Under the pieces are notes generated by a model. It was not told the DNA's origin and did no database searches. It saw only the letters and a list, made by a program, of their open reading frames with translations. Shown piece by piece: positions 1 through 24,800 of a stretch of 34,464 nt of DNA. The stretch is from positions 1 through 34,464 of IMG/VR virus record IMGVR_UViG_3300007609_000055; one strand, written 5' to 3'. Made by a program: the position numbers and the translations under genes. The stretch is from a virus. Each line of letters begins with the position of its first letter. The stretch's first letter is position 1.

Positions 1-742
1 CTTTAAACCATAGTATATTAGATTCTACTTCATTCCAAAGACTACCTTTTCTCAAGAAATCATTTAGTGTTCCGTAACTGTCTACACTCAATTCCACTTT
101 AAGCTTTTTAACTTCTCGCAGCAAGTCGTATAACTCGCCTTTTGGTTTTATAGTGGCATTTGTAATTAACAGCAGTGTAAGTTCTTGTCTGTTACACTTT
201 TTTAATAGGTCTATCAGTTTAGCTTCTTCCATTAACGGCTCGCCGCCAAGAAGTTTAATAAATCTTAGTTCTGACAAATCATAATCGTCAAGTATGGTAT
301 TTTTAGCAATAATACCGCTATGTTTAATGCCTAACTTTTTTGCATCGCTGTACCAACTTGTGCTAAGTTCAGGACCGCACATTCTACATTTGTTATTGCA
401 GACATTGCTAAAAGTTAAATCAATATTAGTTAGCTTTGGTATTTTACCTCTGCCTTCTTCCGGGAATCCAAAATGCGTTACTTGATTCATATCGAGACGC
501 ATACTGTGTCCGCTAGTTGCTTCGTCTGCATAGCACTTACTGCAACCTTTGTTGTATTCATCTTTTAGCATCTTGTTTCTTAAGTCTACAAGAAACGGAT
601 GGTTAAATGGATCCGGATGGTCTACTGTTAAGTCGTCAGGAGTTTCTTCCCATCGAAAGTAACAGCATGGAAATATTCTGCCATCGGGCCGTGTAGCTAA
701 ATGATGGAATGGTAAGTCGCAGCCGTGCTTTCTTTTATCCAT
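1..742 (-). CDS. Radical SAM protein with N-terminal twitch domain (3' end beyond window)
   Basis: This gene has no stop codon inside the window: 247 codons are open from ATG 742 to base 1, so the C-terminus is missing. The N-terminal part carries C8, a CC pair at 26-27 just after a PDG turn, and C67/C70. This is the cysteine pattern of an auxiliary-cluster (twitch) domain placed before the catalytic domain. The catalytic motif CNNKCRMC follows at 115-122 (CX3CX2C, the 4Fe-4S cluster that cleaves S-adenosylmethionine), then GGEP at 166-169. The start is supported by AGAGGA about 6 bases upstream. The start overlaps the end of the preceding radical SAM gene by 8 bases, so translation is probably coupled. 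Family knowledge: such proteins are usually called N-terminal twitch radical SAM proteins, and their substrates are mostly unknown. It is related in architecture to the genes at 1921, 4050 and 5380. Confidence 0.88.
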   Translation of the reverse strand, partial: MDKRKHGCDLPFHHLATRPDGRIFPCCYFRWEETPDDLTVDHPDPFNHPFLVDLRNKMLKDEYNKGCSKCYADEATSGHSMRLDMNQVTHFGFPEEGRGKIPKLTNIDLTFSNVCNNKCRMCGPELSTSWYSDAKKLGIKHSGIIAKNTILDDYDLSELRFIKLLGGEPLMEEAKLIDLLKKCNRQELTLLLITNATIKPKGELYDLLREVKKLKVELSVDSYGTLNDFLRKGSLWNEVESNILWFK

Positions 743-1931
743 TCTTGTCCTCTGCTATAGGTTCGAGTACATCTATATTAAAATGTCCTTTAACTACATC
801 TATGTAATTCTGTTCGTATTTGCTCTTCGGAGCACATAGTCCACAGCCACAGGTATGTTTAGGACAAGTAATTGTCGGCATAGTTCCAGTTTGAAGTTTT
901 TCTCGTAAGTCTTCAATAATCTTCTTACCTTCGCTAATTTTGCCTATAGCACCTCTTGTGCCATCAAAGCGTGCTTGGCAGGTTTGATGATGGTAAACTA
1001 AATCTGTTTGCTGTTCTAGATGTAGGAAAAACCAATTTACACTACACTGCCAGCCTTTGAATTCTCTCATGTCTACAAATGTGCTTTTTCTACTTTCGCC
1101 TTTAAGGCTAAGACACATTTCTCTACTACCGCAGCAAGGTCTGCCGATAGACATACCTAGTTTTTTCTTTTCGGTTGTTTTTTCGCTCGCGGCACTAAGT
1201 ATCTTGCTTTCTTCTAAATCTTGTTTTTTTCCGTTTAGGCGTTCATTCCTATACTTCCAGTAGTTTTTCATATAGTCTATCTGTTCTTCAGTGTAGGTAT
1301 GTGCAAAGCTACTACGACTATCTGGTTCTTCTCCGATAACTCTAGGAACATATTTTACGCCGTGCGCATCGAGAAATTCACAAAGGTCTTTACATTCATC
1401 GAAATATGCCGCGTGAAACATTACATTTACACTAACTGTAAAGTCGTGTGCAGGCCCTTCAGTATGAAATTGTACTATACGATCTCTAACTTGCTGTTTG
1501 AGTTTATTATCACTTTCAGCATGATAACTGACTGTAGCATGTCCAAAATTTTCCATCACAGCAGTAGCCATCTTTTTACCCATTGCTCCGTTTGTAGTAA
1601 GAGCAAAACCGCAACTCCAACGATGTTTATATTTTTCTTCGTATTGTTGTTTAAGGTACTGCGCAAAAGGAATAAAGTTCGGGTTTACTGTTGGTTCTCC
1701 TCCTGTAAATCCGATGTTTGCTTCCTTAAACAATCGATGCTGCATGTACAAGTCAATGTACTCAAACAAAAAGTCTGTATTGTTTTTAAGTTCATCGAGT
1801 GTAGCGTGTTTGCTAAAGTTGTCGTGTCGGTGTGCTGGACAATAACTGCAATCGTAGTTACAGCGTCTACCGGTGTCCCAAGTTACCTGAAATACTTTTC
1901 CGGTCAATAGGTCAATTGTATCAAAACTCAT
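735..1931 (-). CDS. Radical SAM protein with cysteine-rich C-terminus
   Basis: The 398-residue protein has its radical SAM motif at the N-terminus: CNYDCSYC at residues 24-31, followed by an FTGGEP stretch near residue 75 that matches the SAM-binding GGE motif. The C-terminal third is rich in cysteine (a CC...C group near 264-270, single cysteines near 294 and 317, and CPKHTCGCGLC near 354-364). This fits a SPASM-like region holding one or two extra iron-sulfur clusters. The layout (catalytic domain first, auxiliary region last) is opposite to that of its neighbours at 1, 1921, 4050 and 5380. The ATG at 1931 has AAGGA upstream and overlaps the preceding gene by 11 bases. The chemistry is radical-based modification, but the substrate cannot be inferred. 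The domain call is secure; a specific function is not. Confidence 0.9.
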   Translation of the reverse strand: MSFDTIDLLTGKVFQVTWDTGRRCNYDCSYCPAHRHDNFSKHATLDELKNNTDFLFEYIDLYMQHRLFKEANIGFTGGEPTVNPNFIPFAQYLKQQYEEKYKHRWSCGFALTTNGAMGKKMATAVMENFGHATVSYHAESDNKLKQQVRDRIVQFHTEGPAHDFTVSVNVMFHAAYFDECKDLCEFLDAHGVKYVPRVIGEEPDSRSSFAHTYTEEQIDYMKNYWKYRNERLNGKKQDLEESKILSAASEKTTEKKKLGMSIGRPCCGSREMCLSLKGESRKSTFVDMREFKGWQCSVNWFFLHLEQQTDLVYHHQTCQARFDGTRGAIGKISEGKKIIEDLREKLQTGTMPTITCPKHTCGCGLCAPKSKYEQNYIDVVKGHFNIDVLEPIAEDKNG

Positions 1932-3240
1932 TTGTATAATCCTTGAATGCTGGTTCTACGTCTGTTAAATTTTCGCCGCGTATAGCGTCTAATTGCTTCG
2001 TGTAGCGTACAAACTCATGCCAGTGGGTACTGTGGTAGCTATCACTGTTCATGTACTTACACACGCCCTGTGCGATGCTCTGTGCTTGTTTAACAGTGTG
2101 TTCGTCGAAGTTGTTTTCTTTTACCCACTCTACAAAATCATTAAATCTCTGAGTTAGTTTAGCTTTGGCTTCGTCTGGAAGAACTCTGATATTTAAATGC
2201 TGCGGGTGATGTGCAACATGGTGTGTTATAATAGGACGTCGTTTACTAGAGTTTATTTTTGTGAAACCACTTTCAGTTAGTTTCCATTTCATAAAATCTA
2301 TCATATGATTAACATTATATGCTGTTACTGTATAAGCAAGCCATCCGTATATGTTATCGGGCATGTTATCTAGTGCTTGAAGATTCTTATAGAGCTTTTC
2401 CCATTTAGCCGGATATCTTTGATACTCTAAAACCTTTCCGTATCCGTCTATACTTGCTCCGACACGCACTTGTCTAAAATTCTTCCACATTTTAGATACA
2501 CGCGGAGGCAGTGTACTCATGTTAGTGTTATATTCTATTATTATGTTACCGGCAGCATTTTGGTCTATACATTTTTGCAGGAAGTTATAATGACGCTCTA
2601 TTAACATAGGTTCGCCGCCGGCAAAGTATATGTGCCGTATGTTATCTATATGCTTTTCTAGGTACTCCCAGAACGGTTCGTGATTTGGCCAATCATATTC
2701 AGTTGCACACAATTTTCCGTTCACTTCTTTAATTTCTACATCTCCGCTAGTTTCTTTAAAGAAGTTAGATCCGGTTAGTTTGATCCAGTCGTCGTACCAC
2801 GCATTTGAATCTGTCGGTCCACACATGCGGCACTTTAGGTTACAAAAATTACCAAAACGTAAATCGTAGTACTTGACAGGTGTACGGTTAACGTCAATAG
2901 TGCCATCCTGTGCAGTTTCCGAACGAGCTTGCTCTAGTGTGTAATCCCATTGCTCTTGTTCGTATTGTCTACGGCTGTTAAGTCCAGACTGTTCCTCAGA
3001 CAAACAGCGTCCGCACTCGCTATTCCACACTCCATTGAGCATGTTTAAGCGCATTTCTTTCATTAGTTCTGCATTGCGAGCTTCGTCGAGACTGTCTGCA
3101 CCTGCATTATATGCCGAGCCATCTTCTTTTCGAATAACTCCGCGATTTTTTGTCACGTTGGCTTGACAGCAGACTCGTAAGTCGCCGTTGGCTCTTGCAG
3201 CTTGAAATATCCAAGGAATAGGACAAAAAGTATTAGCCAT
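1921..3240 (-). CDS. Radical SAM protein with N-terminal twitch domain
   Basis: The 439-residue protein has an N-terminal auxiliary-cluster region: C6 in a CPIPW motif, CC at 24-25 after a NGD turn, and C76/C79 in CGRC. The catalytic motif CNLKCRMC is at 133-140 and is followed by FAGGEP. The residues before the catalytic cluster (KYYDLRFGNFC) resemble those in the gene at 5380, so the two are probably paralogues. The visible part of the gene at the left edge shares the CRMCGP stretch. The ribosome-binding site is weak (AAAGAAA), and the ATG overlaps the preceding PP-loop gene by 8 bases, so translational coupling is likely. Known for the family: 4Fe-4S enzymes that generate a 5'-deoxyadenosyl radical. 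The substrate is unknown. Confidence 0.9.
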   Translation of the reverse strand: MANTFCPIPWIFQAARANGDLRVCCQANVTKNRGVIRKEDGSAYNAGADSLDEARNAELMKEMRLNMLNGVWNSECGRCLSEEQSGLNSRRQYEQEQWDYTLEQARSETAQDGTIDVNRTPVKYYDLRFGNFCNLKCRMCGPTDSNAWYDDWIKLTGSNFFKETSGDVEIKEVNGKLCATEYDWPNHEPFWEYLEKHIDNIRHIYFAGGEPMLIERHYNFLQKCIDQNAAGNIIIEYNTNMSTLPPRVSKMWKNFRQVRVGASIDGYGKVLEYQRYPAKWEKLYKNLQALDNMPDNIYGWLAYTVTAYNVNHMIDFMKWKLTESGFTKINSSKRRPIITHHVAHHPQHLNIRVLPDEAKAKLTQRFNDFVEWVKENNFDEHTVKQAQSIAQGVCKYMNSDSYHSTHWHEFVRYTKQLDAIRGENLTDVEPAFKDYTNEF

Positions 3241-4057
3241 TTTTAATTTCTTTAACCATATCGTCTAATCGAGAATCAGCCCAGTCTCTTTCTTCACACC
3301 ACCAGCACTGTTTACATTCAGGGATTTCCATACCCGGCTTGTAATCCTTAAAACTTCCACAAACTTCTTTAATAATTTCGTGCTGCTCGATGTCTCCTTC
3401 ACAGCTACGTGTATTATAATACAAATCTGTAATATTGTAAAGATGATATTGTGCCACTATCCAATCTTTTTTTACAAAACGAAATGGATGAGCCATAACT
3501 GCATTAACTTTCCCACTGTAGACCCATACATCTTCCGGTATACCTTGGTCTGCATCCTTGTCTCTATTAGTCATACGATCTGCTCTAGTTGCATCCGGAT
3601 TCTTACTAGTAGCATTAAACACTGCGTCATGTTTATTTTCCCAAGCAGCAAACTTATTAAAACTTCCTACTATAATCTGGTCACCGCTTCTTCCGTGTAT
3701 TATCGGTCCGATCACGCCGTGCTCTAATTCCGGAGGAATATAGGTTGTTATTCTATTTTCAATTATGTTAGGAAATCTGTCTTTAAACCATTGATACACT
3801 TGTTTACTAATATAGCCTTGCCAAGGTCGTGTTTCCCAACATCTCTGATAAGTTATAACATCAATTTTTGTTTCGAGATTGTGCTTTTCTATAATTGTAC
3901 ACAAAAAATATGTTAACAACGCACTATCTGCGCCGCCACTTAAATTTACGCCGACTCTTTTCCAAGAAGAATTAAAAGCAATATCTAAGTGATTAAATCT
4001 TTCAACAATTAAGTCGTTGCGAATGCTATCGTATAAGTGATTGTTTGCATCAAACAT
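3233..4057 (-). CDS. QueC-like PP-loop ATP pyrophosphatase
   Basis: The 274-residue protein contains SGGADS at 40-45, the PP-loop of N-type ATP pyrophosphatases, which activate a carboxyl or carbonyl group by adenylation. Near the C-terminus four cysteines (RSCEG, then PECKQCWWCEER) resemble the zinc site of QueC, where a Cys is followed by a CxxCxxC group and an arginine. It is somewhat longer than bacterial QueC (about 230 residues) and otherwise diverged. It sits between two radical SAM genes and overlaps both by 8 bases, so it very probably belongs to their pathway. QueC makes preQ0 from carboxydeazaguanine. No QueD or FolE gene is visible here and none of the radical SAM genes looks like the short QueE, so a deazaguanine pathway is possible but unsupported. 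Other roles for a PP-loop enzyme (amide or nitrile formation on a sugar or peptide) fit as well. Confidence 0.85.
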   Translation of the reverse strand: MFDANNHLYDSIRNDLIVERFNHLDIAFNSSWKRVGVNLSGGADSALLTYFLCTIIEKHNLETKIDVITYQRCWETRPWQGYISKQVYQWFKDRFPNIIENRITTYIPPELEHGVIGPIIHGRSGDQIIVGSFNKFAAWENKHDAVFNATSKNPDATRADRMTNRDKDADQGIPEDVWVYSGKVNAVMAHPFRFVKKDWIVAQYHLYNITDLYYNTRSCEGDIEQHEIIKEVCGSFKDYKPGMEIPECKQCWWCEERDWADSRLDDMVKEIKNG

Positions 4058-5390
4058 GCTCGATTCTCTCTATATTTGTTCCGTTAAATTTATAATTAAC
4101 CATGTGCTCATTAAACTTCTGTTGCCATATCTTATCTGTTTTTCTAATATATACCATAAACGCTTCCCACTGTGCTTGAGACACATGATTATTGAAAACA
4201 TAGTGTTCGACTTCATTCAATCCTTCAAGGGCAGTTCTTAAATCTGTAAATTCTCTTTTACGGGGATTCCAAGACCTTCTGTAAGTATGCTGATCTAAAT
4301 TAGCAAATCTTTTTTGTCTTTCCCGTTCAACAACATCTTTAGCTTTTTGTATATCAGCTTTAACTTCGTCTGCAAAATACAGAGCCATAAGAGACGGATT
4401 CATATATCTAGGAGTATATACAATAGAACAGTCTATAAAGTTTACATCAAGCTCCATAAAAGACTCAAATATGTTTTCAATATCCATAATCTGATATGCA
4501 CTTGTGGTACACACTATATTAAGCTCTGATTTTTTATCTATCTCTCTAAAAACTCGAACATTTTCTGTTAACTTATCCCAGTCTCCTGTTCTAAAATAAC
4601 CATAAATATTTTTGCCTGCATCAAGGCTCATATGAATTATACTTCTATCAAACGGTTCTAACAGTTTGCTTAGTTTTACTGGATCAAATTTAGCATTAAA
4701 ATTAGAATGAAACGCTAATCTTATGTTTGCAGCATTAGGGTGTTGTGCAAGAAGTTCTAGGCAAGGAAAAAATTGTTTCTGATACAATACTTCTCCGCCG
4801 GCAAAATCAATTTTCATAATGTTAGGAAAATTTTTATTCAAATCACTAACAAGTTCTTCCATTTGCTCTATGCTTATAGAAATTGACAAATTCATATTTT
4901 TATCAGTTTTATGAAATTCTCTAGTCAACTGGATAAGTTTATGTTTTCGATCTTCTTCGTCTGCTTCGTAGTGTTTTAATTTCGTCATCCAGCCTGAGCT
5001 ATACACATCAGAACAATGCAAGCACGCCATGTTACAACTGTTGCTGAATCTTATTTCGACATGTCTCAAAGAAGCAAAATCAATTTCTCCAGTATCAGAA
5101 TCATATAAATTTAAATCTACTACTCTATCCAAAACATGATCAAAATCATGTCGCATACTTTGACTGCCAATTTCTTCTGCTTCCTTACACAGATGGCACC
5201 CTTGACTCCAAGTGCCTGACATCATTTCTTTTCGATGCTTCAGGAAACCCGGGCTGTTTATAATATCAGAAGGTTTTACACTGTCTTCAATAATATACAG
5301 CTCGTCTGATTGTTGTGGGCAGCTGGTAACAAATCCGTTTTTATAATTAATGCCTCCCAGTGCGTAAGGACACACTATGCTATTTGACAT
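4050..5390 (-). CDS. Radical SAM protein with N-terminal twitch-like domain (variant)
   Basis: The 446-residue protein has the catalytic motif CNMACLHC at 119-126 and an FAGGE motif further on. The N-terminal auxiliary region is present (C7, C24, C65, C68), but position 24 is a single cysteine (SCPQQ) where the sister proteins have a CC pair, and the CxPW signature is CPYA. This suggests a changed auxiliary cluster or a different substrate. The region after the catalytic cluster is unlike its neighbours and rich in charged residues. The start has a strong AAGGAG site about 8 bases upstream and overlaps the gene at 5380 by 11 bases. Base composition seems more AT-rich than in the flanking genes, which may hint at separate acquisition; I have not measured this. 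Confidence 0.88.
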   Translation of the reverse strand: MSNSIVCPYALGGINYKNGFVTSCPQQSDELYIIEDSVKPSDIINSPGFLKHRKEMMSGTWSQGCHLCKEAEEIGSQSMRHDFDHVLDRVVDLNLYDSDTGEIDFASLRHVEIRFSNSCNMACLHCSDVYSSGWMTKLKHYEADEEDRKHKLIQLTREFHKTDKNMNLSISISIEQMEELVSDLNKNFPNIMKIDFAGGEVLYQKQFFPCLELLAQHPNAANIRLAFHSNFNAKFDPVKLSKLLEPFDRSIIHMSLDAGKNIYGYFRTGDWDKLTENVRVFREIDKKSELNIVCTTSAYQIMDIENIFESFMELDVNFIDCSIVYTPRYMNPSLMALYFADEVKADIQKAKDVVERERQKRFANLDQHTYRRSWNPRKREFTDLRTALEGLNEVEHYVFNNHVSQAQWEAFMVYIRKTDKIWQQKFNEHMVNYKFNGTNIERIEHV

Positions 5391-6783
5391 TAAAAATCTC
5401 CTTCATTTCAGGAAAGATTTCAGCAAAGTTTACATTTCTTTGAGTATCACAGCGTTGTAAAAATTCTTGCATTTCAGGCAACCTGACACTCCAGTCTTCG
5501 CTTTCCATAAATTTAAGCATACCTTCTAGTCGCTTAATTCCGTAGCTGGCGTCCATAAACTGTTCTTTGGTAACTTTGCCTTTATGCCAGCTGGGAACTC
5601 CCAGCTCCCAGTTCTCTTCCCACCAAGGGTAAAATTCCTCATACTTGCGACGACATTCTTCCTTGAACCACTTTGGCAATACTTTAACATTAAGGTGAGG
5701 AGGATGATACACAAAGTGATAATTAACACCGCCTGCGCCAAAGGGCCACATATTAATCTTACGAAATCCTTCTTGCAGTTTCCATTTAATAAAGTCTGGA
5801 ATATAGTATATGTTTAGCGCCTGTACTGCACATGCAACTGTTACTTCTACATTATCCGAAGTTTCTTTGTCAAGGATGTGAAACACTTCTTTGGTTCTTT
5901 CCCAGATGCTAGGATATCGAATATATTCGTTTCTTTCCATTATATCATCAACACTGTAATGAAAACGAACTAGCTTAAATTCTTTCCATAAGTCGAATAA
6001 ATCGTCTCGCCATTCAACTCCGTTACTGTTATATCGAAGTTCCAGGTTCTTCGCATGACCCTGACGTATTGCTTCTTCAAGTATTTCATAATGTTCCTCA
6101 ATAATTAAGCTTTCGCCTCCTGCAAAATAAATCTGTTGCATGTTGGGCATTTGTTCATAGAACTGTTTCCAGAATGTAGGATTAGCTTTGTGCCAGTTAT
6201 AACTACTGCCATTGTAACTGCCTTTATCCTTCCACTGCATTGTTTCTTTTAGGTTTGGATTTTTAACTTCTGGATAAATTGCTTGCCAATCTTTGATCCA
6301 CCCTGAACTATCGTGAGGTGAACACATTACACAGGCTAATTGACACTTAGTTCCAAATCGTAAATCAATGTAGGCAAGTTGAGGAGGAACGCTGCCATCT
6401 TCTTGTGTGTTAGCAATTAAATTATCTACATCTACTCGTTCACTCCAATATGCAGTTTCCCACATACGCTTAGAGTTATGTCCAGCAGCTTCTTCTTTGT
6501 AACATTTCATGCAGCTGGGCGGCATTTCGCCGTTGAGCATTTGCTTGCGAACATTTTTCATATAAGTGCTGTTCCAAGCTGTTTCAAAATCGCTAACATT
6601 TAAATTGTTAGGCTTGCCATCGTCGGTTTTAAGTATGCCTACTTGTCCGCCGTGCTCTTTGTCGTTGGTTGCTCCAACAGAACTAGCATTAGCTGTACAA
6701 CATACTCTCATACTTCCATCTGGGCGAGTGCTTAGATGCACCCACGGTAAAATACACCATGTGTCGGATACTTTTTTGCTCAT
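5380..6783 (-). CDS. Radical SAM protein with N-terminal twitch domain
   Basis: This is the longest of the set at 467 residues. It has C10 in CILPW, CC at 28-29 after PDG, and CMKC at 91-94, then the catalytic CQLACVMC at 147-154 and FAGGES. Architecture and local sequence match the gene at 1921 (shared LRFG before the cluster, shared NSKR/NSRR after the CxxC, and a shared block with VKVLP or IRVLP in the C-terminal third), so these are likely duplicates. A TAGGTAAG site lies upstream of ATG 6783. A 12-base gap separates it from the preceding gene, the only gap in the whole cluster. The enzyme class is clear but the substrate is unknown. Confidence 0.9.
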   Translation of the reverse strand: MSKKVSDTWCILPWVHLSTRPDGSMRVCCTANASSVGATNDKEHGGQVGILKTDDGKPNNLNVSDFETAWNSTYMKNVRKQMLNGEMPPSCMKCYKEEAAGHNSKRMWETAYWSERVDVDNLIANTQEDGSVPPQLAYIDLRFGTKCQLACVMCSPHDSSGWIKDWQAIYPEVKNPNLKETMQWKDKGSYNGSSYNWHKANPTFWKQFYEQMPNMQQIYFAGGESLIIEEHYEILEEAIRQGHAKNLELRYNSNGVEWRDDLFDLWKEFKLVRFHYSVDDIMERNEYIRYPSIWERTKEVFHILDKETSDNVEVTVACAVQALNIYYIPDFIKWKLQEGFRKINMWPFGAGGVNYHFVYHPPHLNVKVLPKWFKEECRRKYEEFYPWWEENWELGVPSWHKGKVTKEQFMDASYGIKRLEGMLKFMESEDWSVRLPEMQEFLQRCDTQRNVNFAEIFPEMKEIFNVK

Positions 6784-6795
6784 ACAAGTACTTAC

Positions 6796-7866
6796 CTAAT
6801 TAACTATGTAGTTTATTTCGTTATGATACGCTTTATTTTTTGCGCAAGTTTTAATGCACCTTGCTAGATGAAGATTGTGATAAGGATTCCAACTAGCTTC
6901 TAAAAGCTTTTCGTACCAAGGATGATCCATTACTTCTTGTATAGAATGCTTTTTTAAACTGTTCCATTCTGGATCAAATTGTCCTAGTTTTTCCAGGATG
7001 TTTTCTTTGTTCTTAAATGCACTATCCCAGAGAAAACAGCAGGGCCACATTGTGAGATCACTAGCTATAAATATTTCACTTTCGTGTACATATTTACAGA
7101 CTATGCTATCAGTTATTGCTTTTATTTTTTCTTCGTCAACACTACTGGTTTGATATTCTTCTATGAATCTATCAAGCTCTCTTACTACTTCAACTTTACT
7201 GTGTTCTTTGGCTCCAGTAGTAGTAATTGTTTGTGTCTTTTCTACTATTTTCTTGTCTTGTTTTTTCTTCAGCACAGCTATCCAATCATGATAACTGTTT
7301 CGCATACCCGTTCTAGTTGCAAAATCAAAATTTAACTTTTTTGCATGGTCTTTAGCAACATCTAATTCATGCTCATTATGATCAAACATAATATAAATCC
7401 AAGTTGCGCTACTAGGAGGCGCAGCATCTGCGTATGCTGTCATATTGCGCTCTATTATATCAAACTTAGTGTTTACCCTGTAAATGTGATTAGTTTCCTT
7501 GTGTCCGTCGACACAAAAATGTATATGTACCTTTCCTGGATATTCGCTGGCTATTGTTCCCAGTCTATGCCACCAGTCCGCAGTTTGATACCCACCGTTA
7601 GTGCTTAACTCACAATACGCACCGTTACTTGTTAAGTAGGAAACCATGTCTACACATTCATTATTCACTGCCGGGTCTCCAAGTACTCCACAAAATTTAA
7701 ATTCTCTATTAACGATGTCATTTTTTGTAGGAAATAGTCGCTTGATATCCGCCAGGCTAAAACTTTGCAGAGTAAGTTTATCTGCGTTTAGTGTTCTGGC
7801 ACAACCCGGGCAAGCAGCATTGCACTTACTGGTAATTTCTAGTTCGATTTTTCTTATGTATTTCAT
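6796..7866 (-). CDS. Radical SAM protein with C-terminal SPASM-like cysteines
   Basis: The 356-residue protein begins with a strand followed by CNAACPGC at 15-22 (CX3CX2C). The usual GGE motif is replaced by CGVLGDP. The C-terminal part has a cysteine near 257, CC near 274 (WPCCFLW) and cysteines near 336-340, a spacing consistent with an auxiliary iron-sulfur cluster. It is a clear paralogue of the next gene upstream at 7863, which shares the GDP motif, a DGxxxTNHIYR segment and an FDHN(E/Q)H segment. Start and stop form the classic ATGA overlap with that gene, with GGAG upstream. Its partner is probably that paralogue; whether they form a heterodimer or act one after the other cannot be seen. 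Confidence 0.9.
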   Translation of the reverse strand: MKYIRKIELEITSKCNAACPGCARTLNADKLTLQSFSLADIKRLFPTKNDIVNREFKFCGVLGDPAVNNECVDMVSYLTSNGAYCELSTNGGYQTADWWHRLGTIASEYPGKVHIHFCVDGHKETNHIYRVNTKFDIIERNMTAYADAAPPSSATWIYIMFDHNEHELDVAKDHAKKLNFDFATRTGMRNSYHDWIAVLKKKQDKKIVEKTQTITTTGAKEHSKVEVVRELDRFIEEYQTSSVDEEKIKAITDSIVCKYVHESEIFIASDLTMWPCCFLWDSAFKNKENILEKLGQFDPEWNSLKKHSIQEVMDHPWYEKLLEASWNPYHNLHLARCIKTCAKNKAYHNEINYIVN

Positions 7867-8939
7867 TTAAATTGCTCCGTAAACGGATCAAATTCTGCTC
7901 CGCATTTTACACTGCATACTTTTAATTTACCGTTAGAGCAAGACGGTGAGCTCCAACTTTTTTCTATTAGATCGAAAATTCCTGTTTCAAAAACTTTATC
8001 TAATCCTTTGCGAGCGTCTAGTGCATCCTTTCCGCCTGACTGATCAATAAATTTCCAAATTTGTTCCTGCTTAGGATCTTCGTGCCACCATTTATACATT
8101 CTGCCAGCCGTCCAACAACAGGGCAGAGCCATTCCTTCTGCTGTAATAAAAAGACTTCCTTCTTGTTTTACTTTACAACGAACTGGTGTAGCATCATAAT
8201 AAGCATCCATTGTTCCGTATTTTTGTATGATAGCTTCTTGCTTGGTTAGAGCTTTATTTAGATATTTTTCATTGGGCTTTTTAATTTCGCTTGTTTTTTG
8301 ACCTTTGCGATTAACTGCTTGATGCGAATCTTTTCTATTAGTATTTGCATCAACAAACCTTCCTGTCTTTTTAGCTATAAATTTTTCGAATCCCCATTCT
8401 TTCGCAATTTTTTCTGCTTGTTCTACTTGATGCTGATTGTGATCAAATACTATAAAATCCCAACGAGCTCTTCCTCCCGCATCGATAAATGCACGGGCGC
8501 TGCGTACTACATTATCCCAGTTAACACCTTGTCGATAAATGTGATTGGTATCACGCAATCCGTCAACACTAAAAATAACAGCACCCATTCTGCCGAAAAC
8601 TTGTGCAAGTTCTGTCCACCACTCCGTATCTCTTGCTCCTGCATTAGTATTCATACTAAGCCACATATGCGGATTTTGTTCTCTAAAATATTTGAATATT
8701 TCGAGCGTATCTTTTGCAACTATAGGATCTCCTAAATTGCCACACATGTACATGGTTTTTAGTTGCTTTATAAAATCAGGTTTAAATATTTGTTGGCAAT
8801 CTTCCAATGTAAGTTCGTCAAGATTAATATGAGGATTAATTTCTCCGCCATTCATATTGCGGTCACACATCGGGCAGGAAGCCTGACAATTCTGTGTTAT
8901 CTCTAGATGTATTGTTTTTATATCTTCGTACTTGTACAT
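7863..8939 (-). CDS. Radical SAM protein with C-terminal SPASM-like cysteines (paralogue)
   Basis: The 358-residue protein has CQASCPMC at 18-25 and CGNLGDP in place of the GGE motif. It has a cysteine near 255, CC near 272 (LPCCWTAG), and a C-terminal group SC...VCSVKC near 333-347. Length, motif order and the shared DGLRDTNHIYR and FDHNQH segments mark it as a duplicate of the gene at 6796. The ATG shares its A with the TAA stop of the small upstream gene, and GGAAG lies upstream, so initiation is probably coupled. The class of chemistry is secure and the substrate is unknown. Confidence 0.9.
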   Translation of the reverse strand: MYKYEDIKTIHLEITQNCQASCPMCDRNMNGGEINPHINLDELTLEDCQQIFKPDFIKQLKTMYMCGNLGDPIVAKDTLEIFKYFREQNPHMWLSMNTNAGARDTEWWTELAQVFGRMGAVIFSVDGLRDTNHIYRQGVNWDNVVRSARAFIDAGGRARWDFIVFDHNQHQVEQAEKIAKEWGFEKFIAKKTGRFVDANTNRKDSHQAVNRKGQKTSEIKKPNEKYLNKALTKQEAIIQKYGTMDAYYDATPVRCKVKQEGSLFITAEGMALPCCWTAGRMYKWWHEDPKQEQIWKFIDQSGGKDALDARKGLDKVFETGIFDLIEKSWSSPSCSNGKLKVCSVKCGAEFDPFTEQFK

Positions 8940-9163
8940 TAATCTTCCATTGCAAGTTTGACAGTTTTACCAGGACCGACTTTGCTGGGCAAATCTCCGT
9001 ATTGTTCTACATACCATTCTATAACAGCTTTATACCAGTTTTGACTGTTGTGGTGCGCTCGCTTATTAAACTGTTGTATGTTGTTATTTGTAGCCTGCAT
9101 AGTACTTAGTGCTCTGGCACTTTCTGTTTGCAGTTCCCGTAAAGTTAGCTTATCTAATTCCAA
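8939..9163 (-). CDS. Small hypothetical protein, 74 residues
   Basis: I do not recognise this protein. The reading frame fits tightly between its neighbours (14-base overlap upstream, 1-base overlap downstream), which supports a real gene. It starts with TTG at 9163: an in-frame TGA lies two codons upstream, and no ATG occurs before residue 22. AAAGG lies about 9 bases upstream of the TTG. The protein has no cysteine, looks mostly helical, and has a Trp/Tyr-rich stretch (NWYKAVIEWYVEQYGDLP) ending in a lysine/glycine-rich tail. Being the only small protein beside seven radical SAM genes, it could be an accessory or carrier protein or a substrate, but nothing in the sequence shows this. Confidence 0.65.
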   Translation of the reverse strand: MELDKLTLRELQTESARALSTMQATNNNIQQFNKRAHHNSQNWYKAVIEWYVEQYGDLPSKVGPGKTVKLAMED

Positions 9164-10193
9164 TTTTCATGAACCTTTTGTATTGTCCTAAATCAAGTTC
9201 TCCTTGATAAATGACCTGTTTCATGGGAGTATTCTTGCTGAACTCTTCAACAGAATTCGAACAGTTAACGTGATCTTCAATTTCAAAGAAATTGTTAGTT
9301 TGTAGTACCACTAACTTTCCTTCTGGAATTTTGTTGTACCAGTTATCAAAATCCGCTATGTGCTCACAGCTGGTATTAATTATAGTGGTCGGACTGTCTA
9401 CTAGTTCGCACTCTGTTCCGTCCGATTTAATACTTTTGTAGCAATGGTAATCGTAGTCGATATCAAAAATATCTCTTGTAGTAGCTTTGAATTTCCATTG
9501 ATCTGTTAGCCACTTTTTATTAAATGTTTCGGCTATCGCAGCACAACTTTCGTCAATGTCGAAGCTTCTAATTTTATCAATATGAAAATTGTTTTCAAAC
9601 AACATTGTGGCAAGACTAGCATACCACCCTGCACACAAATACACTGTGCCCAAGGATCTTCCGGTATTTTTTAATTCTTCTACAAGCCACAATTTACTTT
9701 TTAACTGTCCTCGACTAAAACAATCGTTTGCTATTACTACGTCGTTTACTACAATTCGTTTAAATGCTGCTGTAAATTCCGTAGAACAGTGTCGTTCTAA
9801 TACCGTGAATAATTTCCATATATTGTCTTCGAGTATTAGTTTTCTAGAATCTTCATCGTATATGAATCTAAAAATACTATGTAAGTTTTCCTCTACAACA
9901 GCTTTGCGTAATTCGTCATTATTAACTAGTCTAAACAGACTGTGTAAATTTTGTTCTAGCATAACTTTTCGAAGATCGTCGCCATCGCCTTTTACAGTAG
10001 CGTCTCCGATAATTCTAAACAAACTGTGTAAATTCTTTTCGACCACTGCTTTACGCAATTCTTCGTTGGCATTTGTAAGTCTAAATACACTGTTGAGATC
10101 TTTGTCTACATATGCTCGCCTTAAATTAGTCAGCTGTTGATTGTTAGGAAACAACAGTTCATATCTGTCCAATAGCTCATGTATTTCTAGCAT
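9150..10193 (-). CDS. Methyltransferase-like protein with N-terminal repeat array
   Basis: The 347-residue protein has two parts. Residues about 25-130 hold five copies of a short motif of the form LRKAVVExNLHSLFRL, spaced 22-28 residues apart. From about 165 on it resembles a class I S-adenosylmethionine-dependent methyltransferase: VYLCAGWYASLATML (motif I position, but with only one typical glycine), then SFDIDESC (acidic residue that would bind the ribose) and a TTRDIFDID segment. The match to classical methyltransferases is loose. ATG 10193 is preferred over the adjacent TTG at 10196 because AAGGAG lies 7 bases upstream of the ATG. It overlaps the preceding gene by 17 bases. The target is unknown. 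Similar repeat-plus-methyltransferase proteins exist in marine phages (from memory, not checked). Confidence 0.72.
   Translation of the reverse strand: MLEIHELLDRYELLFPNNQQLTNLRRAYVDKDLNSVFRLTNANEELRKAVVEKNLHSLFRIIGDATVKGDGDDLRKVMLEQNLHSLFRLVNNDELRKAVVEENLHSIFRFIYDEDSRKLILEDNIWKLFTVLERHCSTEFTAAFKRIVVNDVVIANDCFSRGQLKSKLWLVEELKNTGRSLGTVYLCAGWYASLATMLFENNFHIDKIRSFDIDESCAAIAETFNKKWLTDQWKFKATTRDIFDIDYDYHCYKSIKSDGTECELVDSPTTIINTSCEHIADFDNWYNKIPEGKLVVLQTNNFFEIEDHVNCSNSVEEFSKNTPMKQVIYQGELDLGQYKRFMKIGIR
9804..10124 (-). repeat. Five-copy in-gene repeat (LRKAVVExNLHSLFRL type)
   Basis: Within the methyltransferase-like gene, five copies follow one another. The inner three are nearly identical at the protein level, and two share the 13-base string ACTGTGTAAATTC or its T variant on the plus strand (near 9940 and 10025). 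The outermost copies are degraded. This points to expansion by unequal recombination or slippage in the middle of the array. Confidence 0.8.
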
Positions 10194-11790
10194 CAAATTG
10201 CTCCTTTAGCCAATCAAAGTTGTTAATTAATTTTAGTGCATTTAGATTATTACGATTTTGTTCGCCATATGCTCTTCCGCTGCGAGCGCCGTCTGTCACG
10301 TATTCTCCGTACGGTTCATCTTTGCCTTTATCGCTGCACCATATGTTTAGTCGTAGCTCTGTCTCGATATCTTTTTGACGATCTATTACCTTACTTGCTA
10401 GTTTTGCACATTCCCTAAATCCACTTTTCCAAGCACTAAAAGGGTCAGTATTAAACTCTGTGCTGTTTGCAACTTCTTTAACAGGTTTGAAGTGCGGGCT
10501 AATACTAGTAGTCATGTCCGGCTTTGATATATCCATTTCGATAGTAGCAATTCTTGGAAACAGTTTTACGCCGCCGTAGCCATACTCTAGTCCCTTTACT
10601 CTATTTTCACATCTCCATACGTGAACAAAATCTTTTTCCTTTTCTGGCACAATGTAATCAAAATTAAAATCTTCTTTTATACACGCATCGCCATCTACTA
10701 TCCAAAACATATCTGTATCACATTGTTTAGCTGCTTCTATATGTGCCTGGTGTATTCCTTTTACTCCGTGAACTCTTTTTGCTCTTGGGAATCGAGATTT
10801 TAGGGCCTGCCAATTAGTGTCGGCATTTGGTTCGTTATAACTGATAAACACTATATCGTAAGTTTCATTTCCTAAACTATTTCGCTGCGAAATATTTTTA
10901 CTAGACGCTCTAGTAGGATTAACATAAACTGTTTTAAAAAACTTGCTTTGGTTTGCACTTAGAGGAATGCTATCAATAGGAATATCTAGTTCGTTAATTA
11001 ATGCAGATCCTACAGATTCTATATGTTGATCTAAACAGTCTTCCTTGGTTGCTTCCTGCTTCCATAACGTATTAAGATATTCAAAATCTCGAACATTGAT
11101 GTAATTCCAGTCTGTACATGCAGTCATGTACAAGCCCTGTCGTGCTCCGTAAATTGCCCAGTTGCCGTTCTGTACATCAGCGCCTGTCATTAACCAAACA
11201 TACAATCGGTGTAGATTTTTCCAGTGTAATTTTTTAATGTTTTCTTTAGGAACTTTAATGCCTTCGTTTAAAGACATTTTTACACCTTCTCTAAATCCAG
11301 CTCGCCACGCCTGTTGTGCAGTAGCATTGTTATAAATTTCGCTGTAACAACCAGGCATATGAAAATAGTTTACATCCCAGCAAAAATCTACTTGTGCATG
11401 TATGTTATCAACTGCGGCATTTTCGTGTGTTTTCATTTTAAGAACTAGATTCTTTGGCCAACTTTTAATACCGCCGTTGCCGTACACTAGTCCGTTGATA
11501 ATATTTCTTGCAGTCCAGCTGATGACTGTTTTGTTCATATCAACTGAAGCATCAATGTCAAATTCTTGATTTAAAAAATCTTTGTTAACAACATTGTCGC
11601 CATCAACTATAATTAGTCTATCAGTTTCGCTTATCTCAGCACATGCTTTATGAGCAGCATCGCTTCCGTGTACTCCATGCACACGCTTTGCCCACGGAAT
11701 CTTAGAACAAAGGTCTGCGTAATTTTTTTCTGCATTGGGTTCGTCGTACGACAAGTATACTACATCGTAGTCTGCAACTCTAAATTTCAT
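10177..11790 (-). CDS. Protein with two fused glycosyltransferase-like (GT-A) domains
   Basis: The 537-residue protein consists of two tandem copies of one domain. Copy 1 starts near residue 8 (YDVVYLSYDEPNA) and copy 2 near 311 (YDIVFISYNEPNA). Both continue with AKRVHGV and a histidine/alanine-rich helix, then a hydrophobic strand ending in VDGD (D63/D65 and D366/D368) and a YGxGGxK block. The DxD after a hydrophobic strand is typical of nucleotide-sugar-binding GT-A folds. Each copy also ends with a WxxGFRE block followed by a segment with YGARxG or DGARSG. GAGG lies 7 bases upstream of the ATG. Sugar and acceptor are unknown. Position among other glycosyltransferases supports a glycan role; domain homology is judged by eye. 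Confidence 0.75.
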   Translation of the reverse strand: MKFRVADYDVVYLSYDEPNAEKNYADLCSKIPWAKRVHGVHGSDAAHKACAEISETDRLIIVDGDNVVNKDFLNQEFDIDASVDMNKTVISWTARNIINGLVYGNGGIKSWPKNLVLKMKTHENAAVDNIHAQVDFCWDVNYFHMPGCYSEIYNNATAQQAWRAGFREGVKMSLNEGIKVPKENIKKLHWKNLHRLYVWLMTGADVQNGNWAIYGARQGLYMTACTDWNYINVRDFEYLNTLWKQEATKEDCLDQHIESVGSALINELDIPIDSIPLSANQSKFFKTVYVNPTRASSKNISQRNSLGNETYDIVFISYNEPNADTNWQALKSRFPRAKRVHGVKGIHQAHIEAAKQCDTDMFWIVDGDACIKEDFNFDYIVPEKEKDFVHVWRCENRVKGLEYGYGGVKLFPRIATIEMDISKPDMTTSISPHFKPVKEVANSTEFNTDPFSAWKSGFRECAKLASKVIDRQKDIETELRLNIWCSDKGKDEPYGEYVTDGARSGRAYGEQNRNNLNALKLINNFDWLKEQFDARNT

Positions 11791-12343
11791 TTATTACCTC
11801 ATAGCCATAACTGTTAAAAATTTTTCTTGTAAAGATACTTACTTCTGTTTTGTCCTGTTCGAATGGCATTGTGAAATCAAGCTCTACAACTTCGCTGTTT
11901 ATTAGCTCGCTCATTTGAATCGAAAAGTACTTGTATAACACATTAACATCGCCTACATCAGTTATACTGAAAAATACAGTCTGATCTGTGTTTAGGTTAT
12001 TTTCTTTTAGTGTTTTACGTAAAGTAGAATCTAATTTTATTTGCCACTGTTTCTTTGCGCAATTTTGTATTATTTGTAGTTCTGCTTCGGAACTATAAGG
12101 TATTTCGTATAACAATTCTAGTGCAGTAACCGTAGTTATTTTTCTGCGTTTAACAATAGTGTACTTTCTTTGCTGTACATCATATTTTACCTTGTAATCT
12201 AGCCTATTGTCTGTTCCGTTTTTAAGTCCAATTATTTTGCTTAACGGAACCTCTATAGAATTTTCAACTTTTAAAGAAGGGCCCATTCTTTTAATTTTGC
12301 CTGTATCTTTATCAAATACAACTGTTATTAAAGGATCGCGCAT
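11780..12343 (-). CDS. Conserved hypothetical protein, 187 residues
   Basis: I do not recognise a domain. It begins MRDPLITVVFDKDTGKI and ends with YGYEVINEI, has no signal peptide or membrane segment, contains one cysteine and is predicted mixed alpha/beta from its alternating pattern. It lies between two glycosyltransferase-type genes (overlaps of 11 and 16 bases), so it is probably expressed with them. AAAGG precedes the ATG. From memory, similar proteins sit near tail and glycosyltransferase genes in marine T4-like phages. A virion or glycan-accessory role is only a guess. Confidence 0.7.
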   Translation of the reverse strand: MRDPLITVVFDKDTGKIKRMGPSLKVENSIEVPLSKIIGLKNGTDNRLDYKVKYDVQQRKYTIVKRRKITTVTALELLYEIPYSSEAELQIIQNCAKKQWQIKLDSTLRKTLKENNLNTDQTVFFSITDVGDVNVLYKYFSIQMSELINSEVVELDFTMPFEQDKTEVSIFTRKIFNSYGYEVINEI

Positions 12344-13125
12344 TTTTCAAACCTTTCGATTATTGTATCTGTTACAAAGTCATCTTCAACATAATGAAGA
12401 ACAGTGTCTTGTGTGTAGCTGCCGAGTTTTACTTGACAGTATTGGTTAACATATACACCCAGTTTGTGAGTCCACATCTCAGACGGTTGTTTCCAATTTT
12501 GTATCAAAGGTTTCATATGCACAAGAAATGGTGCTGTAAGAGAAGTTTCTTTATAGCCTGAGATTTTAAGAGCTATAGCAGTGTTTACATCCATACTGGG
12601 TTCCGTGGGTGTATGCACTTTACAATGTGCAGTGTAAAACTCCTTCCAGTTTTCGTTAATAAGATTTAACAGATCATAAAAGGTTTTGTTAACTTCTGTT
12701 TTCTTAAAATAAAAAAATGCATTATAGCAATTAGGCAAGCTATTTGCTGTAAACGTTTTTCTGTAGAAATCGTTTGTTACTAACTCTTTTCTATAAGAGT
12801 ATACACTGGTCGGATAGTACAGGTCTCTATGCATCAGATTCCAAAAATAATCTAAACAGGTTAAAACAATACAATCAGAATCCAGTACTATTGTTTCATC
12901 ATAAGGACTAAGTTCATATGCACGAGATCTGATAGATGTTCTATATCTGCCTGTATCTGCTGTATCGTATGAAATAACTTGATCAAAAATGTTATCCTTT
13001 ACTGCTTCATTTGTAACAATGCTTACAGGATAGTTATTTTTAAATTTTAGAGACAGAGCTAACAAGTACGCCTGCCTTGCATATTGCTCTCCTTCTGCGA
13101 ATACTAAAAATCCTCTACTGCTCAT
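12328..13125 (-). CDS. Glycosyltransferase-like protein (GT-A fold, DxD)
   Basis: The 265-residue protein has an N-terminal FLVFAEGEQYARQAYLLALS segment and PVSIVTN strand, then YDETIVLDSDCIVL with D82-S-D84. This is the metal/nucleotide-sugar site of GT-A glycosyltransferases such as family GT8. A later segment has NCYNAFFYFKK, and the C-terminus has HYVEDDF. It is a paralogue of the next gene (shared MSS(R/K)G start, (L/P)PVSIVT, YDET(I/L)(V/L)LD, FF(Y/R)K). The ATG has TAGGTG upstream and overlaps the gene at 13115 by 11 bases. The role is probably transfer of a sugar to a phage or host glycan; donor and acceptor are unknown. Confidence 0.78.
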   Translation of the reverse strand: MSSRGFLVFAEGEQYARQAYLLALSLKFKNNYPVSIVTNEAVKDNIFDQVISYDTADTGRYRTSIRSRAYELSPYDETIVLDSDCIVLTCLDYFWNLMHRDLYYPTSVYSYRKELVTNDFYRKTFTANSLPNCYNAFFYFKKTEVNKTFYDLLNLINENWKEFYTAHCKVHTPTEPSMDVNTAIALKISGYKETSLTAPFLVHMKPLIQNWKQPSEMWTHKLGVYVNQYCQVKLGSYTQDTVLHYVEDDFVTDTIIERFEKCAIL

Positions 13126-13939
13126 CTATACACCTATTAAGACTAAATTTATTCATGGCATGAACATTGATACCTTTTGTTCTTAGAAGAGTGTTGTTTT
13201 GAGTATCAGTTGGGTCCTCTAACAGTAGCAATAATTCTTCGTTTTTAATTTCTTTCAAAACACTCTTATCGGTGATATGATAAAGCTTACCAGGTAAAGA
13301 CTTAGCAAAAGATCCTGGTTTAAATCCGTTTATAATATGGATGCCGATACTAAAAACATAATCGTTGCGGAAATTAGAAGTTAAAATTCCGTATGCTTTT
13401 ACATAATGATCCCAATTTTGTTCTATATGTATTAGTAGATCAAAGAACAGCTTGTTAACAGCAGTTTTTCTAAAAAACACACAAGTTGCCCAATAAAAAT
13501 CAATACCACTGTCGGCTAATCTTAGAAATTCTAAATCAGTTTCTCGATCTACTAAGTCAATTGAATTTTTATATATTTGAAAATCTTCAAAATTATCAAA
13601 GCACTCGGCAAAATTGCTATTACAGATTACTATGTCTGTATCTAATAACAGCGTTTCATCGTATGGTGTTAGATTATATGCTTGTGTCCTTAAACTGTTT
13701 TTCCATTGTATATTACTTTTATAGTTTTGCCCGTCATAAAAAGATTTTACGTTATTCTCGTCTGACGAAACTGTAATAACTTTGTCGAAGCCGTCTAAGT
13801 CTGTATTTGCAGTGTCCGTAACTATGGATACTGGCAAATCTAAATATTCTTTTGCTCGTTGAGCTAAAAATTTTGCCTGCTTTATATAATCTATTTCTGT
13901 ATTATTTCTTGCAAATAGCAAAATACCTTTAGAGCTCAA
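13115..13939 (-). CDS. Glycosyltransferase-like protein (GT-A fold, DxD), paralogue
   Basis: The 274-residue protein resembles the gene at 12328: MSSKGILLFA start, LPVSIVTDTA, and YDETLLLDTDIVI with D100-T-D102. It starts at TTG 13939. This start is supported by GGAG about 7 bases upstream and by alignment with the ATG start of the paralogue, whose first residues are nearly the same. It overlaps the gene at 13929 by 11 bases. The two probably arose by tandem duplication and then took on different donor or acceptor specificity (inference). Confidence 0.78.
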   Translation of the reverse strand: MSSKGILLFARNNTEIDYIKQAKFLAQRAKEYLDLPVSIVTDTANTDLDGFDKVITVSSDENNVKSFYDGQNYKSNIQWKNSLRTQAYNLTPYDETLLLDTDIVICNSNFAECFDNFEDFQIYKNSIDLVDRETDLEFLRLADSGIDFYWATCVFFRKTAVNKLFFDLLIHIEQNWDHYVKAYGILTSNFRNDYVFSIGIHIINGFKPGSFAKSLPGKLYHITDKSVLKEIKNEELLLLLEDPTDTQNNTLLRTKGINVHAMNKFSLNRCIDEQ

Positions 13940-15437: not shown

Positions 15438-15445
15438 TATTTATA
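15438..15445 (-). promoter_or_regulatory. T4-type late promoter (TATAAATA)
   Basis: Read on the minus strand, the octamer is exactly TATAAATA, the consensus of T4 late promoters recognised by a gp55-like sigma factor. It lies 37 bases upstream of ATG 15400, and its central TAA is the stop codon of the gene at 15441. A second AT-rich string (TATAATATA) follows, so the exact start point is uncertain. Confidence 0.75.
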
Positions 15446-16958
15446 CCTTTAGCACGCACTCGATTAATTTTTCCGATTCTTGGTTGCTTGATTCTAACGC
15501 AACTCCTACCAAGTATTCTGTAACTTCCGAAGTTGCTATTCCGCCTTGCCAGGCGTAAACTGGTTGTCCTTTCTTTACAATGCCCATAACTCTTACCGGA
15601 ACTCGTCCTTTAAGTCCAATTGCCTGTCCTTCGGATTCTGAGTTCATTAGATATGCCGGTTCTGCAGAAATAACACCGATTGGTATTCCGCCATCTGAGC
15701 ATTCTTCTGCTTCGTGGTCTATATGATCACAGATCATCATGACTGTTCCTACTGGGTATTCTTGATCAGTTGTATATTTTTCTGCCAAGTCTGCATATCT
15801 CGCCGATAATGCAGTACCAATAAACAGATTGGCTCTTAGGTTGCCTGAATTATCTCTTACTGCAACAGTATTATCGGTAGCCTCAATAGATCCTGCTCTA
15901 TTGTTTCCGCCAACAACTAATGCAGCAGCTTTTTCTGACAATCCTGTAAAGTTTGTAGCAAATACATTTGAAAAGGGAGATGCTGCATTACCAATTGTAA
16001 CTGTTTCTAACGAATAATTATTAGCATCGGCTTCATTTATATTAGTAACACCTGGCAGTAAAGCAGTTGGTGTAACACGCACTGTGTTTTTAACTCCACT
16101 TGCATCCTTTGCGCTAAAAAATATTGTGTCTCCGATTTCGTTACTGATTGCAATTTTGTTGTCTGTATTACTAGGAACAAATACTTGTAAGTCATTTGAA
16201 TCGCCGACCGAGAATCCTTCGTCTGGAAACTGAGCAGCATTGTCAAAGACCGTCGGAGTTCCTGGCTCAGAAATTACATACCTATCTGCATCTACACCGT
16301 TTAATTTTAATGAGTTACTGGATGTTCCCCAAAATATATGATCATTTGATGTGATCCCGCCAGTTGATGCTTGAGTATTTACTAAGGTTATACCCTTTTT
16401 AATTACATCAAACCCAGGAATTACATTTTCTGCATCTGTATTATCAATAGTAAATGCTTCATTAGATACTGTAAATACTACACTGTCGCTTATAACTGCT
16501 GTAATTACACTGCGAGAAGTTCCCTGGCTGTCTCGGATACTTCGAGATAGCATCTGTGTTACGCCTTCTCCTGCATCTTGAGGACCTATCAGTATAAAAT
16601 CTGTTCCGTTGTATGCATATAGCTGTTCGTTTGCATTGTCCCACCAAAAATCGCCTTCGGTTAGACCTGCAGGAGCATCAGGAGTTGTTTCAGCTCCGCC
16701 TGTTGTGCGCCACTTAACGCCATCATAAAATTTTAATTTACCAGTTGAGGAATCAAACCAAACCTGCCCGCTTATAGCTCTGGGTGGAGGATTGCTGCCT
16801 GCAAAATTTTCTAACAGATATAAGAAATTTTCGTTATGTATTTCGCCGTAACCAGCATAGTTTTTTCCAACAAAGTTCAAATCTGTAGTCTGGTCGATAG
16901 TACCATCTTCGACTACAGTAAGCAATGTTTTGTTATATCTATCTATCTGATATGCCAT
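15441..16958 (-). CDS. Tail fibre/adhesin-like protein with shared N-terminal module
   Basis: The 505-residue protein starts with the module shared by the genes at 18433, 20271 and 22127: (D)GTIDQTTDL, GKNYAGYGE, NENFLYLLENFA, GQVWFD, and a W-D-N...LY(A)YNGTDFILIGP ending near residue 130. The C-terminal part from about 385 (RYADLAEKYTTDQEYPVGTVM and a GVISAEPAYLMNS block with an EECSDGGI insert) is a form found at the end of many phage tail fibres. The middle has beta-rich low-complexity segments. A weak late-promoter variant lies upstream. The likely role is host recognition at the tail. The domain names are from memory. Confidence 0.8.
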   Translation of the reverse strand: MAYQIDRYNKTLLTVVEDGTIDQTTDLNFVGKNYAGYGEIHNENFLYLLENFAGSNPPPRAISGQVWFDSSTGKLKFYDGVKWRTTGGAETTPDAPAGLTEGDFWWDNANEQLYAYNGTDFILIGPQDAGEGVTQMLSRSIRDSQGTSRSVITAVISDSVVFTVSNEAFTIDNTDAENVIPGFDVIKKGITLVNTQASTGGITSNDHIFWGTSSNSLKLNGVDADRYVISEPGTPTVFDNAAQFPDEGFSVGDSNDLQVFVPSNTDNKIAISNEIGDTIFFSAKDASGVKNTVRVTPTALLPGVTNINEADANNYSLETVTIGNAASPFSNVFATNFTGLSEKAAALVVGGNNRAGSIEATDNTVAVRDNSGNLRANLFIGTALSARYADLAEKYTTDQEYPVGTVMMICDHIDHEAEECSDGGIPIGVISAEPAYLMNSESEGQAIGLKGRVPVRVMGIVKKGQPVYAWQGGIATSEVTEYLVGVALESSNQESEKLIECVLKV

Positions 16959-16983
16959 CTTGTTTAATTCCTATTAACTAATG

Positions 16984-16991
16984 TATTTAGT
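16984..16991 (-). promoter_or_regulatory. Weak late-promoter-like octamer (ACTAAATA)
   Basis: Read on the minus strand, ACTAAATA matches TATAAATA at six of eight positions. It lies 25 bases upstream of ATG 16958 and 5 bases after the stop of the upstream gene. This is the same position relative to the stop as the better site at 20258. It may be weak or not used. Confidence 0.35.
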
Positions 16992-16996
16992 TGTTT

Positions 16997-17452: not shown

Positions 17453-17458
17453 ATTCTC

Positions 17459-18431: not shown

Positions 18432-18432
18432 G

Positions 18433-20235: not shown

Positions 20236-20257
20236 TCTCTAACCCTACTGTATATGA

Positions 20258-20265
20258 TATTTATC
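20258..20265 (-). promoter_or_regulatory. T4-type late promoter (GATAAATA)
   Basis: Read on the minus strand, GATAAATA matches the T4 late consensus at seven of eight positions. It lies 22 bases upstream of ATG 20235 and 5 bases after the stop codon of the gene at 20271. The same octamer recurs at 24793. Confidence 0.65.
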
Positions 20266-20270
20266 GCATA

Positions 20271-24792: not shown

Positions 24793-24800
24793 TATTTATC
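24793..24800 (-). promoter_or_regulatory. T4-type late promoter (GATAAATA)
   Basis: Read on the minus strand, GATAAATA matches the late consensus at seven of eight positions. Its TAA at 24796-24798 is the stop codon of the giant gene, exactly as at 15438-15445. It lies 19 bases upstream of ATG 24773. Confidence 0.65.

Follow-up and report, generated by a model that had tools for sequence, protein, structure and literature searches.

What does a phage do with seven radical S-adenosylmethionine (SAM) genes and a PP-loop gene lying head to tail? The question is raised by the IMG/VR virus record IMGVR_UViG_3300007609_000055, a linear contig of 34,464 nucleotides that was analysed over its entire length (hereafter the window) and whose first 8,939 bases carry these eight open reading frames (ORFs) on the minus strand, with neighbours overlapping by about 4-11 bases and separated only once, by a 12-base gap. 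As the window is the whole record, base 1 is the edge of the contig and not the end of the cluster. The array around the PP-loop gene belongs to a marine T4-like phage and recurs in dozens of related phages and, in part, on Bdellovibrionia chromosomes. We favour, at slightly under an even chance, the reading that it contributes to a modular biosynthetic island tailoring a carbohydrate-containing surface molecule. The target would most likely be a polysaccharide in the envelope of the infected cell, with a glycoconjugate of the virion as a possibility. The genes of the array are as follows.

2..742, minus strand: T1, N-terminal-twitch radical SAM protein, cut by the contig edge (NF033640 188 bits, PF04055 E 8.5e-7)
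735..1931, minus strand: R2, radical SAM protein with GGEP and C-terminal auxiliary cysteines (PF04055 E 1.2e-9, PHROG 13987 E 2.5e-13)
1921..3240, minus strand: T3, N-terminal-twitch radical SAM protein (NF033640 377 bits)
3233..4057, minus strand: PP, PP-loop (SGGADS) protein with a predicted QueC fold and a putative four-cysteine metal site (AlphaFold2 (AF2) model and structure search)
4050..5390, minus strand: T5, N-terminal-twitch radical SAM protein (NF033640 210 bits)
5380..6783, minus strand: T6, N-terminal-twitch radical SAM protein (NF033640 425 bits)
6796..7866, minus strand: S7, radical SAM protein with GVLGDP and C-terminal cysteines (PCC) (PHROG 21308 E 4e-17, PF04055 E 0.0015)
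7863..8939, minus strand: S8, radical SAM protein with GNLGDP and C-terminal SPASM-like cysteines (PCC) (PF04055 E 4.3e-9, PHROG 21308 E 8e-21)

A sequence-only reading of the window had claimed seven consecutive radical SAM genes of three architectures, and searches with hidden Markov models bore out the set, its coordinates and its division. PF04055 (Radical_SAM) was found in all seven proteins, above its curated cut-off in five (E 8.5e-7 to 1.2e-9), just below it in T5 (28.3 bits against 29.5) and clearly below it in S7, which is matched by its PHROG family. The NCBIfam model of N-terminal-twitch radical SAM proteins, NF033640 (N_Twi_rSAM, cut-off 170 bits), was passed by T1, T3, T5 and T6, and T6 spans the whole model. 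As R2, S7 and S8 scored only 27, 34 and 46 bits, they represent other radical SAM types, R2 with its GGEP motif and the S pair with GxLGDP and PCC. NF033640 is a family defined by sequence whose name gives no reaction, and its definition does not extend to tandem arrays that include S-, R- and PP-type partners. SPASM matches in Pfam (T6 6e-5, T1 0.02) mark putative auxiliary-cluster enzymes, and the cysteines C29, C91 and C94, invariant in alignment A2, are putative ligands of auxiliary iron-sulfur (Fe-S) clusters.

Viral relatives were retrieved by searching IMG/VR with the PP protein, which gave 46 loci at 44-73% identity; the frequency of PP itself is therefore no independent evidence, and several records are near-duplicates. 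Radical SAM genes were present in all 46 loci, and by ortholog thresholds T6 and S7 occurred in 46 and S8 in 45. The sequence-only reading had proposed looking for the same gene order in other viral genomes, and the order GT10-o9-S8-S7-T6-T5-PP-R2-T1, where o9 and GT10 are neighbours beyond S8, was fully collinear in 37 of the 46 loci; the other nine are one move away (five R2/T1 swaps and four moves of S7). Recurrence of this order excludes chance, and the number of relatives rules out an accident of a single phage. Whole records carried 6-20 PF04055 matches each (23 records, with 20 each in a 98-kb and a 342-kb record) and between 6 and 21 matches to the N_Twi model. The boundary of the cluster, which was to be sought left of base 1, lies beyond the contig, and there the relatives show a complete T1 (about 360-406 residues), often an SDR-like neighbour and then more radical SAM and PP-loop genes.

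The genes appear to be maintained. CX3CX2C is kept in each of the 391 radical SAM ORFs that are 300 residues or longer, and T6 is the most conserved protein of the array (80-92% in phages). Comparison of the window with its closest relatives gave a dN/dS of about 0.02-0.18 where computable; these values are rough, as dS approaches or reaches saturation, and for several pairs none was obtained. Decay of paralogues is ruled out by the intact motif together with the low dN/dS. T5 and PP form a single continuous polypeptide in L052 (873 residues) and L053 (843 residues), and a double radical SAM fusion was found in L030. The conserved gene order and the fusion of PP with a radical SAM protein fit one multi-step pathway, as had been suggested from the sequence alone. 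The phage isolate collection held no PP homologue and homologues of T6 only at 21%, in two Vibrio phages. Genes for SDR-like, PLP-decarboxylase-like, SGNH-like and methyltransferase-like proteins recur around the cassette. A viral Fe-S carrier (PF01521) was found in 1 of 13 records and was dropped as general support. Variable accessory genes in L036 (13767-15539), L019 (17976-20810) and L008 (19631-20821) are SGNH-like, PLP-decarboxylase-like, methyltransferase-like, oxygenase-like and of the B12-type radical SAM kind.

The PP-loop protein is likened to QueC because of its predicted structure and not because of sequence matches. Its family matches in Pfam and NCBIfam were weak (ATP_bind_3 E 0.04, TilS_N E 0.002), the QueC family PF06508 gave no match at E 0.1, and a PDB sequence search with the PP profile returned weak matches only. 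The AF2 model has high confidence (pLDDT 89.7), and the solved structures that matched it best were those of QueC (3bl5, Z 14.7 over 186 residues at 3.8 Å; 2pg3, Z 14.3 over 191 residues at 3.4 Å), followed by TilS and then by Cap9 (Z 12.9) and QatC (Z 12.0); by this model PP has the QueC fold. In an alignment of 30 viral homologues, further paralogue groups included, S40, G42-S45, C219 and C248-x2-C251-x2-C254 were invariant and SGGADS was present in 29. The motifs of QueC are SGGxDS, C(x)8CxxCxxC, YxQxHxxE, VPxRN and YPDC (PMC13329287). PP resembles the QueC family (QueC, Cap9, QatC) in the PP-loop SGGxDS, the C-terminal CxxCxxC and its best structural match, but differs from it in the missing PF06508 match, in the absence of YxQxHxxE, VPxRN and YPDC from all 30 sequences and in the spacer from the first cysteine to CxxCxxC, which is 28 residues in the group of the window and 6-49 in paralogues against 8 in QueC.

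As the canonical substrate motifs of QueC are missing, deazaguanine chemistry should not be read into PP, which we infer to be an ATP-dependent carboxylate-activating enzyme acting on a substrate other than that of QueC. The early description of a QueC-like enzyme at 3233 thus holds for the predicted fold and fails for the substrate motifs. The canonical preQ0/deazaguanine pathway is ruled out by the missing motifs and the rarity of QueD, which was above cut-off in 2 of 13 viral records. Other groups of PP-loop paralogues, alike in their cysteine pattern, were seen in the same islands (L023 7832-8683, L024 4574-5380, L020 16690-17340 and L019 18899-19645).

A scan of GTDB gave 14 loci in metagenome-assembled genomes (MAGs) with PP-loop proteins at 22-28% identity, and a T- or S-type radical SAM gene lay near the PP-loop gene in all 14. 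Identity of window proteins to bacterial homologues reached 62% for T6 (a chromosomal homologue), 52% for T3 (on a bacterial contig with rpoB), 47% for S8 (Bdellovibrionia) and 44% for R2 (a Bdellovibrionales MAG). Arrays in MAGs of the Bdellovibrionia type share contigs with housekeeping genes, namely rpoB and a tRNA synthetase in G029 and EPSP synthase and GcvP in G032; the G035 array is on the same contig as acetyl-CoA carboxylase genes, and in G036 an N_Twi array shares a contig of 2.66 Mb with BipA, Dus and AstA. Misbinning of phage contigs as the sole source of the bacterial homologues is ruled out for these four by the housekeeping genes on the same contig. Such an origin is probable for some of the loci, among them L062, on a contig labelled as a Chloroflexi MAG that also carries a gp23 capsid gene at a distance of about 100 kb and probably represents misbinned phage DNA. 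In G029 and G032 the T6-like gene adjoins GT10 and o9 as in the phages (loci L084 and L078), and a toolkit of T6, GT10, o9, PP, S, R, SDR, PLP and B12-radical SAM genes recurs on Bdellovibrionia contigs. NF033640 proteins above cut-off were present in 39 of 119 sampled genomes of the class. The bacterial arrays further hold a UTP-glucose-1-phosphate uridylyltransferase-like protein (UDPGP 3e-18), an NTP_transf_3 nucleotidyltransferase (6e-11), GT2 and several GDSL hydrolases, and in L061 a GDP-mannose-dehydratase-like sugar epimerase adjoins T, S and PP.

In the window, the cassette continues past base 8939 with a 74-residue ORF, a methyltransferase-like gene and putative glycosyltransferases in conserved order.

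8939..9163, minus strand: conserved 74-residue protein, usually between o9 and S8
9150..10196, minus strand: o9, repeat region and methyltransferase-like domain (by eye)
10177..11790, minus strand: GT10, putative two-domain glycosyltransferase (Glyco_tranf_2_3 E 0.0028, below cut-off)
12328..13125, minus strand: putative glycosyltransferase (Mannosyl_trans3 E 0.006, below cut-off)
13115..13939, minus strand: putative glycosyltransferase resembling its neighbour at 12328 (by eye), no Pfam match

Among the 46 viral loci, o9 was found in 39, adjoining GT10 in Bdellovibrionia too, and GT10 in 36. Tail-fibre-like genes between 15 and 24 kb adjoin the island, which thus occupies the position of a host-recognition cluster. 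Several of the tail-fibre-like proteins (15441-24154) are alike in their N-terminal part, which points to duplicated genes in the host-recognition region. Two small proteins lie amid them (16997-17452 and 17459-17935), of which the second matches 2-oxoglutarate-Fe(II) oxygenases (Pfam 9e-5, PHROG 61 1e-7). As to the type of phage, gp23-type capsid genes were present in six viral relatives, and a virion-like protein of 3222 residues (24796-34464) partially matches structural proteins of RaK2, GAP32 and Callisto/PA5oct-type jumbo phages at 26-32% identity over about a quarter of its length, the nearest for this protein being the RaK2/GAP32/PA5oct type.

The substrate, reactions and benefit of the pathway, as we infer them, would be the following. 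Glycosyltransferases would build or lengthen a glycan, from whose sugar or acyl carbons the SPASM/twitch radical SAM enzymes would take hydrogen, resulting in deoxygenation, epimerisation, dehydrogenation or coupling. PP, beside T5 and in two phages fused to it, would activate a carboxylate with ATP so that an amide can form, and the residue would be finished by the SDR-, PLP-, SGNH- and methyltransferase-like enzymes. As the island lies beside tail-fibre genes, the expected benefit to the phage would be an altered receptor or host-surface identity (superinfection exclusion, host recognition). Presence of the toolkit on cellular chromosomes also favours an envelope molecule over a purely virion-specific one. 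The sugar enzymes of the bacterial arrays, the epimerase of L061 and the absence of any PqqD-type peptide-recognition domain from 19 viral records tilt the choice towards a glycan.

Several observations weigh against a glycan. In the phage, neither the glycosyltransferase nor the SDR matches reach curated cut-offs, and no Pfam, PHROG or NCBIfam family matched o9. No complete nucleotide-sugar pathway was found in the window, and an epimerase was present in only 6 of 19 viral records. PP is not obligatory, as some bacterial arrays lack it within the regions read. To our knowledge, twenty radical SAM genes exceed the need of any known glycan pathway. The predicted structure of T6 matched the sugar enzymes DesII (Z 9.8) and BlsE (Z 9.4) and the peptide maturases CteB (Z 9.6) and SkfB (Z 9.5), and also viperin; the model fits sugar enzymes and peptide maturases equally well, and such ties are uninformative in telling a sugar from a peptide substrate. 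It is plausible, though on balance doubtful, that large marine phages and Bdellovibrionia have in common a hitherto undescribed class of pathway, in which expanding twitch/SPASM arrays and amide-forming partners of the QueC fold would make a chemically new surface (or peptide) molecule, the content of the array varying like a serotype locus.

An unlikely alternative is that the array matures a peptide or protein, either RiPP-like (a ribosomally synthesized and post-translationally modified peptide) or a virion protein, with the 74-residue protein or a tail fibre as substrate. The radical SAM enzymes would then crosslink, epimerise or alter residues, as peptides are substrates of many SPASM/twitch enzymes and T6 resembles CteB and SkfB in its model, and the QueC-fold enzyme would attach a group to a terminus, an activity reported for Cap9 and QatC, both of which the PP model resembles. 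The 74-residue ORF is aromatic-rich, lies directly upstream of S8 in many loci and was found in 19 of 21 viral records, but its conservation extends over the full length and a division into leader and core is not apparent. In G021 it stands about 140 kb away from the cassette, and the searched Bdellovibrionia genomes with the array lack it. The missing PqqD-type domain, the sugar nucleotidyltransferases of the bacterial arrays and the failure to identify a peptide exporter or maturation peptidase near the block also argue against a peptide. The 74-residue protein had no significant match among phage isolates, and in the 342-kb record it lies far from the cassette (177726).

It is similarly improbable that the island yields, in place of a polymer, a small molecule able to diffuse or a derivative of a nucleoside or nucleotide, resembling an antibiotic, a cofactor or an anti-defence compound. 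Deazaguanine metabolism couples a radical SAM enzyme (QueE) and QueC in sequence, but the three QueC motifs missing from all 30 PP sequences and the scarcity of QueD speak against such a product. PLP- and B12-radical-SAM genes recur and the matches of the T6 model include BlsE, DesII and viperin, yet no resistance or export gene was identified. Hypermodification of a nucleic-acid base of the phage to evade restriction is very improbable, as the homologous block lies on Bdellovibrionia chromosomes, the array adjoins tail genes, QueD is rare and the canonical QueC motifs are absent, even though QueC-pathway enzymes serve 7-deazaguanine DNA modification in phages (PMC6884629).

The tailoring of a surface glycan, which we prefer, has parallels in marine phages. 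The sequence-only reading had called a run of this length with a PP-loop enzyme striking, single radical SAM genes being known in marine phages; the run is real, but relatives are numerous and often longer, and the T4-like marine genome TARA_ERS488813_N000010 (183 kb) has 12 radical SAM genes, listed among Fe-S-related genes (PMC5332604). Pelagimyophages carry radical SAM cassettes with glycosyltransferases in a host-recognition island that includes tail fibres (PMC7029224), and both gene types are prominent in Tasman Sea viromes (PMC7150976). Multiplicity of radical SAM genes in marine T4-like phages has thus already been reported, in the available text of the first two sources without a function, and that text does not mention a conserved gene order, a partner of the QueC fold, fusions or homologues in bacteria (PMC5332604, PMC7029224). 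The LPS (lipopolysaccharide)/O-antigen islands of the cyanophage P-SSM2 type are likewise multi-gene sugar-modifying islands with glycosyltransferases in a large T4-like marine phage; they differ in that sugar isomerases, kinases, nucleotidyltransferases and glycosyltransferases are described and radical SAM proteins are not mentioned (PMC7824862). The literature covered, which is incomplete, yielded no previous account of the conserved cassette, of the QueC-fold protein in it, of the fusions or of the bacterial counterpart. We would place the array among phage surface-modification islands, with a real chance that its chemistry is new.

Radical SAM enzymes carry out unusual C-H chemistry, and the investment of 6-20 such genes per phage, often 10-20 kb, implies a strong and repeated benefit. 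With its conserved core, variable periphery, fused QueC-fold protein and counterparts in bacteria, the pathway can be tested by means of defined gene sets, and its product, once known, would account for the radical SAM cassettes reported without explanation from marine viral genomes since 2017.

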